64,000 nt of DNA from NCBI RefSeq assembly GCF_024362485.1, contig NZ_CP101456.1:1240001-1304000 (forward strand). The letters run 5' to 3'. Below, piece by piece: positions 57,515-59,910 of this stretch (positions are counted from its first letter, which is position 1; every line of letters starts with the position of its first letter). The notes below the pieces were generated by a model. It was not told the DNA's origin, made no database searches, and saw only the letters and a list, made by a program, of their open reading frames with translations. Position numbers and translations under genes: made by a program. The stretch is from Natronobeatus ordinarius. GTDB taxonomy: Archaea > Halobacteriota > Halobacteria > Halobacteriales > Natrialbaceae.

Positions 57515-58255
57515 ATGATCGTCGTCGTTCCGGTACCCCCGCCCCGCGAGGGACTCGTCCTGTCGTCGCTCACAGAGGAGACGCCCCTGTCGACGGCCGA
57601 GGTGACACGACTCGCCGAGGCCGCGACGATGGACGTGCTCCACGCCGCCCGCTCGAGCGGCGGTGACCTCCTCGTCAACTACCGCGACGAGGAGACGCTG
57701 CCCGACGCGTTCGACGACGGCGACCCCGAAGCCGAGGTGCGCGACCTGGTACAGGACACGCTCGGCGAGGACGCCGAATTCCGCCTCGAGCGTCAGGTCG
57801 GCTCGACGCGAGCCGCACGGGTCGGCAACACCGTCACCCACCTCCTGAATCGCGAGGACGCGGCGAGCGTGGGCGTCCTCGAGCCGACGGCCCCGCTGGT
57901 GGCTCGCACCGAGATCGACGGCGCGGCGATGTCCGTTCGCCGAACCGAGGTGGTGCTCGGCCCGGCCGGCGACGGCTCGGTGTACTTCGCCGCCTTCGCC
58001 GACCCGATCGACTTTACGGACGCCTACGAGCCGCCAGCGCTCGAGACGCTCGCCCGCCGCGGCGAGTCGGCCGGGCTGGACGTCGGCTTCGCCCCGGCGA
58101 TCCCGACGATCACGACCGAAACCGGCCTCTGTGCGACGATCGCCGGCCTCGAGGCCCGCCGGGCGGCCGGCCGGCCGATCCCCGAAGCGACCGCACTGGT
58201 CGTCGACGACCTCGGCCTGACCGTCGAAGACGGCCCGACGCTCGGTCGCGAATAG
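57515..58255 (+). CDS. Haloarchaeal protein of nucleotidyltransferase-like appearance, function unknown
   Basis: A 246-residue soluble protein that starts VVVPVPPPREGLVLSSL, contains SGGDLLVNYRDEETLP, and a central FRLERQVGSTRAARVGNTVTHLL, then VGVLEPTAPLVARTEIDGAAM and VVLGPAGDGSVYFAAFADP. The alternating pattern and the LGPAGDGSVYF segment recall DUF2064/CofC-like GT-A folds, but the usual DxD metal site is not clear. I would treat this as a possible glycosyltransferase-like or nucleotidyltransferase-like protein. It ends 41 nt before tRNA-Ser. Confidence 0.65.
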   Translation: MIVVVPVPPPREGLVLSSLTEETPLSTAEVTRLAEAATMDVLHAARSSGGDLLVNYRDEETLPDAFDDGDPEAEVRDLVQDTLGEDAEFRLERQVGSTRAARVGNTVTHLLNREDAASVGVLEPTAPLVARTEIDGAAMSVRRTEVVLGPAGDGSVYFAAFADPIDFTDAYEPPALETLARRGESAGLDVGFAPAIPTITTETGLCATIAGLEARRAAGRPIPEATALVVDDLGLTVEDGPTLGRE

Positions 58256-58296
58256 ACCGACAATGCTTTTTGAGTCGGTGGAAAACTCACACTCGA

Positions 58297-58380
58297 GGTG
58301 AGGTGGCAGAGCGGCCTAACGCGCCTGCCTTGAGAGCAGGTGGCTGGAAAGCCTCATGGGTTCAAATCCCATCCTCACCG
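58297..58380 (+). tRNA. tRNA-Ser (anticodon UGA)
   Basis: An 84-nt type II tRNA. The acceptor stem pairs GGTGAGG (58297-58303) with CCTCACC (58373-58379), with G58380 as discriminator; CCA is not encoded. The anticodon stem is CCTGC/GCAGG, with anticodon TGA at 58331-58333. A long variable arm (GGCT-GGAA-AGCC) confirms serine. The T arm is ATGGG/CCCAT around TTCAAAT. A T-rich stretch (GCTTTTTG, 58265-58272) about 28 nt upstream may be its TATA element. Confidence 0.95.
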
Positions 58381-58439
58381 TTTTCCGCGAGCACACACGA
58401 CGAGCGAAGCGAGGAGTCGCTCGAGCGGAAAACGGGAAC

Positions 58440-58523
58440 GGTGGGATTTGAATCAGGGAAGTCGCAACGGCCGAACGGAGTGAGGCCGACCGTCTTCCCG
58501 TGGTTCAAATCCCATCCTCACCG
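58440..58523 (+). repeat. tRNA-tail hairpin unit 1
   Basis: GGGATTTGAATCA (58443-58455) pairs with TGGTTCAAATCCC (58501-58513), allowing one T-G pair. GGGAAG (58456-58461) pairs with CTTCCC (58494-58499) after a one-base bulge. An inner CGGCC/GGCCG stem caps it. It ends with a tRNA-like ATCCTCACCG. Confidence 0.88.
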
Positions 58524-58561
58524 CTTTTGTGACGAACGGACGTGAGGAGCAAAGCGGGAAC

Positions 58562-58635
58562 ACGGGATTTGAATCAGACCGAGGTTCTGCGCTTCGCGCA
58601 GGTTCTCGGGCGTGGTTCAAATCCCATCCTCACCG
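58562..58635 (+). repeat. tRNA-tail hairpin unit 2
   Basis: The same outer stem (58564-58576 with 58613-58625) around a different core, where CCGAG/CTCGG encloses CTGCG-CTT-CGCAG. The tRNA-like tail follows to 58635. So the outer arms are conserved while the insert differs from units 1 and 3. Confidence 0.88.
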
Positions 58636-58727
58636 TTGCTGTCTTCAAAAGAGCGCGAGCGCTCTTTTGGACCTCGCGGAGCTTCGCTCCGCTCAGTCGC
58701 GAACAATTCGTGAGCGACAGCGAGGTC

Positions 58728-58811
58728 GGTGGGATTTGAATCAGGGAAGTCGCAGCGGCCGAACGGCGTGAGGCCGACCGTCTTCCCGTGGTTCAAATCC
58801 CATCCGCACCG
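58728..58811 (+). repeat. tRNA-tail hairpin unit 3
   Basis: Nearly identical to unit 1 over 84 bases (two differences in the loop and one in the tail, where CCTCACC becomes CCGCACC). Outer stem 58731-58743 with 58789-58801; inner GGGAAG/CTTCCC (58744-58749 with 58782-58787). Confidence 0.88.
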
Positions 58812-58896
58812 TACTCAGTCCCCGGCGAGCGGAGACGACACGTCGTGATCGCCGCATCCTGTACGTTTTTCCGCGTCAGCCGGCAACCACTAGTCG

Positions 58897-59910
58897 ATGA
58901 CACAGTCACTCGAGAACGCCGACCTCGATTTCGAGCCACTCGGTCGCACCGGCATACACACGAGCGAGCTCCAGTTCGGGACCTGGCGCTTTGGCCGCAC
59001 CACCGAGGCGGGGAACCTCGAGATCACCGAGGAGCGCGCGCACGAACTGCTCGACGCTTACGCCGACGCTGGCGGTCGGTACATCGACACGGCCGACGTC
59101 TACGGCGGCGGCGACAGTGAACGGTGGATCGGCGACTGGCTCGACGAGCGCGAGCGGGAGCGATATACGATCGCCTCGAAGATCTACTGGCGGATCCGCG
59201 ATGGCGATCCGAACAGCGTGGGGACGAACCGGAAGAACCTCCGCCACCGCCTCGAGGCGCTCCTCGAGCGCCTCGACACCGACTACGTCGACGTCCTCTA
59301 CATCCACCGCTGGGACGACGAGACGCCGACCCGGGAGCTACTGAAGACGCTGAACGGATTCGTCGAGTCCGGCATGGTCCACTACCTCGGCGCGTCGACG
59401 ATGCGGCCGAACGCCTGGAAGGTGGCGGAGGCGAACGCCATCGCCGAGGCCAACGGCTGGGAGCCGTTCACCGTCCTCCAGCCGCGGTACAACCTCGTCG
59501 ACCGCGAGATCGAGGGCGACTACCTCGAGTTCGCGCGCGAGCGCGGGCTCGCGATCTGTCCGTGGAGTCCCCTCGGGCAGGGGTTTCTGACCGGGAAGTA
59601 CTCCCGCGAGGCGGACCTGCCGACGGACTCGCGGGTGGCCGAGTCGAGCCGGTTCCGGGAGTCGTACCTCACCGAGGAGAACTTCGACGTACACGACGAA
59701 CTCGACGCGGTCGCCGCGGAAGTCGACGCCTCCCCCGCGCAGGTGGCGCTCGCGTGGCTGCTCCACCGCGACGGCGTCAGCGCGCCGATCATCGGGGCGC
59801 GGACGGTCGAACAACTCGAGGAGAACCTCGCGGCCGCGTCGATCGAACTCTCCGCGGAACAGGTCGAGCGGTTGACGGCGGCGAAGGCGGGCCCCTACCA
59901 GGGGTTGTAA
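58897..59910 (+). CDS. Aldo/keto reductase
   Basis: A 337-residue TIM-barrel NADPH oxidoreductase. The catalytic tetrad is visible: Asp and Tyr in YIDTADVYGGGDSE, Lys in YTIASKIYW, and His in DVLYIHRWDD. The C-terminal SAPIIGARTVEQLEENL binds the cofactor. It belongs to the YajO/AKR11-13-like group of general stress or sugar reductases. It follows the hairpin array by 85 bases and has no evident operon partner. Confidence 0.93.
   Translation: MTQSLENADLDFEPLGRTGIHTSELQFGTWRFGRTTEAGNLEITEERAHELLDAYADAGGRYIDTADVYGGGDSERWIGDWLDERERERYTIASKIYWRIRDGDPNSVGTNRKNLRHRLEALLERLDTDYVDVLYIHRWDDETPTRELLKTLNGFVESGMVHYLGASTMRPNAWKVAEANAIAEANGWEPFTVLQPRYNLVDREIEGDYLEFARERGLAICPWSPLGQGFLTGKYSREADLPTDSRVAESSRFRESYLTEENFDVHDELDAVAAEVDASPAQVALAWLLHRDGVSAPIIGARTVEQLEENLAAASIELSAEQVERLTAAKAGPYQGL

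Follow-up and report, generated by a model that had tools for sequence, protein, structure and literature searches.

Palindromic cassettes carrying the tRNA 3' end trail tRNA genes throughout Halobacteria

Behind its tRNA-Ser(UGA) gene, the genome of Natronobeatus ordinarius carries copies of the tRNA 3' end in both orientations, which raises the question of what these copies form and whether the arrangement is peculiar to this gene. The window in which they lie, that is, the whole stretch of DNA analyzed at this locus, comprises 64,000 nucleotides of the chromosome (NZ_CP101456.1, positions 1,240,001 to 1,304,000). A preliminary description of this DNA had reported three downstream copies of the 22-nt tRNA-Ser end, each with an inverted partner. 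We found direct copies of this end (GGTTCAAATCCCATCCTCACCG) at 58502, 58614, and, with one mismatch, 58790, and the partners (GGGATTTGAATCA) at 58443, 58564, and 58731. The three units could be delimited at 58440-58523, 58562-58635, and 58728-58811, and the relationships described among them held as well: units 1 and 3 are near-identical (92% identity over 96 nt), while the core of unit 2 is different, being of type B as opposed to type A in the other two. In addition, each unit is preceded by a hairpin, H1, which starts at the end of the tRNA or of a copy (Table 1).

Table 1. Features of the array behind tRNA-Ser(UGA), with positions counted from the first letter of the window.
Feature	Position	Strand	Sequence or form	Detection
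tRNA-Ser(UGA), source of the copied 3' end (nt 53-73)	58297..58380	+		ARAGORN; Rfam RF00005, 52.9 bits
Unit 1 H1 hairpin	58380..58433	+	outer stem GTTTTCCGC/GCGGAAAAC	
Unit 1 T' (inverted partial copy)	58440..58456	+		
Unit 1 type-A core	58457..58501	+	AGTCGCAAC..GACCGTCT around a GA-capped hairpin	
Direct copy 1	58502..58523	+	last 22 nt of tRNA-Ser	
Unit 2 H1 hairpin	58524..58555	+	CTTTTGTGACGAACGGACGTGAGGAGCAAAGCG	
Unit 2 T'	58562..58577	+		
Unit 2 type-B core	58578..58613	+	ACCGAGGTTCTGCG..CGCAGGTTCTCGG	
Direct copy 2	58614..58635	+	last 22 nt of tRNA-Ser	
Unit 3 H1	58636..58723	+	TTGCTGTC..GACAGCGA, broken up by extra hairpins	
Unit 3 T'	58728..58744	+		
Unit 3 type-A core	58745..58789	+		
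Direct copy 3	58790..58811	+	last 22 nt of tRNA-Ser, 1 mismatch	

On the + strand, the tRNA and the three units hold the only copies of at least 16/20 in the entire 64 kb. A single unit has a folding energy of about -48 kcal/mol and a z score of about -6, and none of 200 shuffles folded equally well. The type-A core of units 1 and 3 has the consensus AGTCGCARC..GACCGTCT, and the type-B core of unit 2 occurs also behind Lys, Phe, Val, Arg, and Ser tRNAs. The long form of H1 in unit 1 is specific to Ser and was seen again behind tRNA-Ser(UGA) of related genera. Within the H1 of unit 3, we noted a perfect 11-bp hairpin (CAAAAGAGCGC/GCGCTCTTTTG) at 58646-58669 together with another hairpin. A scan of positions 58200-58900 against Rfam 15 with E values up to 10 returned only the tRNA above its gathering score; the best non-tRNA match was the H/ACA RNA Pab160 (20.9 bits, E 0.82, gathering score 47.4). 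The array behind tRNA-Ser(UGA) is confirmed as real, and it is one instance of a much larger family.

A blastn search with unit 1 returned further copies in the genome, mostly directly behind other tRNA genes. We scanned 600 nt of downstream flank at each of 46 tRNA genes identified by covariance search and found that 31 of them carry a copy of their own 3' end (at least 16/18), as compared to about 1% under the same settings in a null built from the flanks of other tRNAs. The inverted arm (at least 9/10) was present at 26 of the 46 genes and accompanied the direct copy at 24; because T loops resemble each other, the inverted arm alone is less informative, its rate in the null being 26%. From the genome, 45 units were extracted and folded. 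The covariance model R1, which was built from units, gave 46 matches in its own genome at E≤1, all of them at a tRNA gene or a displaced array with the exception of a single orphan. Two Ala-tRNA genes lacked units, and we read them as located inside rRNA operons; in the one informative tandem tRNA cluster, units stand only behind the last tRNA. The orphan, at chromosome positions 3924678-3924754, has no tRNA; its upstream copy resembles tRNA-Arg(CCT) and its downstream copy tRNA-Val(TAC), so that by its sequence it looks like a recombinant of two loci. Another R1 match, at 3994685 (region 3994500-3994770), lies behind a putative tRNA-Pro(CGG) that is absent from the 46-gene covariance list.

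Several of the unit-free tRNA genes carry integrated elements. Inspection of the 20-40 kb downstream of tRNA genes lacking a unit revealed three displaced arrays about 18-20 kb off, namely, an Arg-TCT array with three copies 20.4-20.6 kb downstream, an Arg-CCG array at 18.8 kb, and a Met-CAT array at 17.9 kb. The Arg-CCG and Met-CAT arrays follow a 13-nt remnant of the tRNA end (nt 61-73). Because such remnants precede the displaced arrays at the far ends of the elements, the arrays are older than the integration. Integrases, whose proximity the preliminary description had considered, do occur here: integrase-family genes are present in the displaced-array regions, and none lies inside a unit array. 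At tRNA-Arg(TCT) (chromosome 295883-316650), the element is about 20 kb long and carries integrase-family genes at either end; the array lies at its far end, and the first unit there has lost H1 and most of T'. The Arg(CCG) element (1436406-1455400) and the Met(CAT) element (617500-636097) have a stretch in common just behind the tRNA.

The extent of the copied block was determined on 219 units behind 160 tRNA genes, mostly from Halobacteria. In first units, copy and tRNA mismatched in 1-9% of cases per position over nt 54-73 and in about 50% from nt 74 onward; the 5' edge of the direct copy lies at nt 52/53. Thus, the copied block is nt 53-73, and both of its edges are sharp. T' is the complement of tRNA nt 54-63 and most often lies 37-47 nt past the tRNA end, the layout being fixed. 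Where a tRNA departs from the consensus of its isoacceptors, the copy carries the local base in 116 cases and the consensus base in 7, and this tracking extends to acceptor positions 66-69. T' follows the local tRNA as well, with 24 local as compared to 4 consensus bases. At positions where copy and tRNA disagree, T' fits the tRNA in 45 cases and the copy in 15, some of these cells being bulge artefacts. Positions 66-73 of the copy lie beyond the unit hairpin and have no partner in the unit, yet they are equally conserved. Several genera share a recurrent one-base bulge or insertion where the copy corresponds to the T loop (TTCACAATC), with T' intact. Together, these data define a cassette with two parts: H1, which begins where the mature tRNA ends, and then an imperfect palindrome of T' arm, GA-capped core, and nt 53-73 copy.

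Whether other haloarchaeal genomes hold such units, a point raised by the preliminary description, was answered by covariance search: they are common throughout the class, where the arms fit the local tRNA and R1 matched 382 of the 391 Halobacteria genomes, representing 83 of 86 genera. In a second draw, from across the phylum, 42 of 43 Halobacteria genomes and none of about 204 others gave a match. Each of the 30 best matches examined, one of which came from the window's own genome, followed a same-strand tRNA at a distance of 26-199 nt, and its arms were identical to the adjoining tRNA. A pattern search with the fixed core found units in named Haloferax, Haloarcula, Halorubrum, Halobacterium, and Natrinema, among others; a tRNA was located 28-356 nt upstream of 110 of its 127 matches, and most of the remainder lay at contig edges or behind tRNAs missed by ARAGORN. 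Two genomes with about 48-49% GC (G014 and G129) gave neither an R1 match nor a copy at the 22 tRNAs examined, which indicates that units are dispensable there, and the loss may go with GC content, to judge from these sequences. In a third R1-negative genome, which is deep-branching, 6 of 13 tRNAs are followed by copies; the core there is minimal and escaped R1. Eleven viral contigs contained no unit, their one common match being a chance match in an apparently protein-coding stretch, and the phage records searched yielded none; a viral or phage origin was rejected on these grounds. On plasmids, we found three matches, of which two follow a tRNA-Gly and a tRNA-like Glu sequence, respectively, and the third is a core without arms. 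A plasmid of Halomicrobium urmianum (~701-752 of L305) has a type-A core with no tRNA-derived arms and no tRNA gene nearby. The locus behind tRNA-Ser(UGA) is thus one member of a class-wide haloarchaeal family of tRNA-trailing cassettes.

Covariation was evaluated on ten Gly-TCC units with 34 proposed pairs. We found that 97% of the cells are paired, as compared to only 28-44% in slid controls. Both sides have changed in 10 of the 34 pairs, amounting to 31 cells, a number that none of 500 shuffles reached; a T.T mismatch conserved in the core is unpaired in 8 of the 10 units. These compensatory changes, present in H1 as well as in the core, bear out the suggestion that a structured family is involved. 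Among the closest orthologues, identity is 0.88-1.0 in H1 and 0.92-1.0 in the core, as compared to 0.35-0.67 in the flanks. In orthologues at Ser-UGA, the types of H1 recur and the cores have been exchanged; two relatives carry an extra unit ahead of an older one, apparently inserted between the tRNA and the older unit. The conservation of orthologues together with the swapped cores indicates that units are mostly inherited, with recombination among them. Cassettes are passed on together with their tRNA gene, undergo tandem duplication, and exchange cores, and both arms are kept matched to the local tRNA.

The evidence on whether the cassettes act as RNA or as DNA is divided. GA-capped hairpins lie on the tRNA-sense strand in 226 cases and on the other strand in 6, and the sense strand also folds better. 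Mismatches within the units include 68 G.U and 52 A.C, as compared to 24 and 2 in tRNAs of the same genomes (p = 0.0005 for the units); the corresponding counts are 10:8 in H1 and 43:46 between T' and copy. With G.U about as frequent as A.C, RNA pairing is not visibly under selection. In H1, the ratio of double to single changes does not exceed that in tRNA stems, and templated correction of the palindrome is therefore not supported as the source of the compensatory changes; as a whole, the stem-change statistics do not distinguish selection from templated correction. The preliminary description had favored a processed RNA that uses tRNA end-processing signals. Its structured family stands, while the stems lack the wobble preference of RNA; its T arm must be dropped as a signal, since the copy (nt 53-73) holds only the 3' strand of that arm, which cannot form from it.

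We consider a conserved module of the tRNA trailer that functions in the transcript to be the best reading of these sequences, although a tentative one that falls a little short of an even chance. In this reading, the pre-tRNA transcription unit would end in the cassette, which would act in cis as its 3' trailer. Once transcribed after the last tRNA, the cassette would fold immediately into stable hairpins, and pairing of the nt 53-73 copy with T' would keep the anti-T-loop strand away from the tRNA. The hairpins might mark off or insulate the 3' end, in termination, in processing of the trailer, or in decay, or might serve as a decoy of the tRNA end. The copies would stay identical to the tRNA because the 20-nt direct repeats recombine with one another, and T' would stay complementary because the hairpin is under selection. 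This reading is favored by the transcript-terminal placement of the units, with none behind the Ala-tRNAs and units only behind the last clustered tRNA, by the sense-strand bias of caps and folding, and by orthologues that keep H1 and core, compensatory changes, and a fixed layout. It is further favored by the small RNAs reported in Haloferax mediterranei from at least 12 gaps flanking tRNA genes, on a side that is not stated (PMC5852579). It is weakened by the near parity of G.U and A.C in the palindromes, by the conservation of the unpaired positions 66-73, and by the GC-poor genomes that lack units.

The same strand-symmetric mismatches argue for an element acting at the level of DNA, in which the palindrome would be folded DNA or a recombination site in the T loop (nt 53/54), working much as the folded single-strand sites of integrons do, and a recombinase or template switching would gain and homogenize units. 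The copied block, from the edge of the T loop to the discriminator base, is what integration at the T loop of a tRNA gene would be expected to copy; the direct as well as the inverted copies track the tRNA, tandem arrays have swapped cores, and the caps hold GNA loops and tandem GA motifs, which are very stable in DNA too. However, no recombinase is linked to the units, the viral contigs and phage records are free of them, orthologous units are inherited vertically, and in three cases elements integrated at the tRNA end and not at the copies. Nor do double and single stem changes carry a signal of templated correction beyond that of tRNA stems. We regard this explanation as unlikely, if worth keeping in view, and give the same doubtful standing to a new kind of locus-templated element, a palindromic cassette behind most tRNA genes of the class whose arms would be rewritten again and again from the adjoining tRNA, directly for nt 53-73 and inverted for nt 54-63, by a dedicated process that works on the transcript or on folded DNA. 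Quite improbable, in our judgment, is a selfish or passive palindromic repeat with no host function that inserts beside tRNA genes and duplicates nt 53-73. The occurrence of one core type at many tRNAs, the apparent insertions in the two relatives at Ser-UGA, and the unit-free GC-poor genomes are in its favor, but units stand behind most tRNA genes in nearly every genome of the class, close orthologues are much better conserved than their flanks, and target-site duplication cannot account for the inverted arm or for its tracking of the local tRNA. Moreover, the diversity of cores within one genome (mean identity 0.55) gives no sign of a recent burst.

The other explanation weighed in the preliminary description, attachment sites left behind as elements, here viruses or plasmids, integrated one after another at the tRNA gene, had been faulted there for leaving the paired inverted copies unexplained, and this objection stands. 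Integration at tRNA ends that leaves 3'-end copies behind is indeed known for haloarchaeal elements (PMC3119063) and has occurred in this genome, and the copy runs from nt 52/53 to nt 73, as from a crossover point to the tRNA end. Such remnants are alike in block extent and downstream position, including those of archaeal tyrosine recombinase elements. The units differ in being short, gene-free, and inherited with the tRNA, in carrying an inverted arm, a conserved core, and H1, none of which belongs to such remnants, and in having been displaced by real elements, which they pre-date at Arg-CCG and Met according to the 13-nt remnants. No integrase lies within the arrays, in which about 40-120 nt of noncoding DNA separate the copies, the viral contigs and phage records hold no units, and units recur in 382 of 391 genomes. 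All of this makes attachment remnants highly improbable. Chance or low-complexity GC-rich hairpins, for which the GC-rich intergenic regions of this genome might speak, have a negligible probability and were excluded given the 31 of 46 genes against a 1% null, copies that fit the local and not other tRNAs, and the fold z score of about -6.

Other identities were tried and rejected. A general haloarchaeal 3'-UTR hairpin was discarded because GA-capped hairpins, surveyed in the window and in 351 kb of mostly non-tRNA sequence, are clustered at tRNA arrays. H/ACA or C/D guide RNAs were considered on account of a T' that is antisense to the T loop and of K-loop-like caps; the units show no pocket, ACA, or D box, and the H/ACA match scores far below its threshold. 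As we read the folds, the units show no bulge-helix-bulge, as a substrate of the splicing endonuclease would, and the arms equal the local tRNA instead of forming the constant terminal repeats of a transposon-derived MITE.

Among known systems, the nearest analogue is the tyrT repeats of Escherichia coli with their RtT RNAs, which are likewise tandem units downstream of a tRNA gene and contain 19 nt of its 3' end. To our knowledge, these repeats lack an inverted T-loop arm, nor do most tRNA genes carry one with arms matched to the tRNA in question. The RtT covariance model gave no match in 58200-58900 even at an E value of 10. The transcripts of tRNA operons, that of tyrT among them, release RtT RNAs, which have been tied to the stringent response (PMC4986893). 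Haloquadratum harbors small mobile repeats, MITEs, and PATEs, which are short palindromic noncoding repeats of haloarchaea (PMC3119063); no link to tRNA genes, and no arms re-templated from a neighbor, are described for them. The genome G014, which lacks units at the tRNAs examined, is Haloquadratum-like. Integron attC sites are imperfect palindromes with structure conserved over sequence and a variable terminal hairpin, and they stand in tandem behind a fixed site. The likeness is one of apparent working, as the units have no gene cassettes or linked integrase and their arms are host tRNA sequence. CRISPR arrays also have direct repeats split by inserts beside a fixed leader-side element; in the units, however, the repeat is the tRNA end, and the inserts have a core conserved across the class in place of unrelated spacers. 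A literature search found the family undescribed in the sources covered; subscription papers lay outside this coverage, and an earlier mention is possible. The cassettes are a family, near-universal in Halobacteria, that is without a match in Rfam or in the literature covered.

If the family is as general as the searches say, it is an unnamed basic part of tRNA gene anatomy in Halobacteria, where a trailer assembled from the gene's own 3' end would follow most tRNA genes. Such a finding would point either to a new mode of tRNA end formation or control, or to a new type of element whose arms are rewritten from the gene next to it. Haloferax volcanii, a genetically tractable species, would allow a direct test. 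The recognition of attachment sites at tRNA ends would be affected too, since many archaeal "partial tRNA" repeats may be units. A last observation concerns the apical loops of H1 and core, which have the consensus stem-GA-RC-(GNA or longer)-GY-GA-stem with tandem GA pairs. From their sequence, these GA-pair loops are possibly K-loop-like, as in the K-loops bound by L7Ae, and would then be a candidate protein site.
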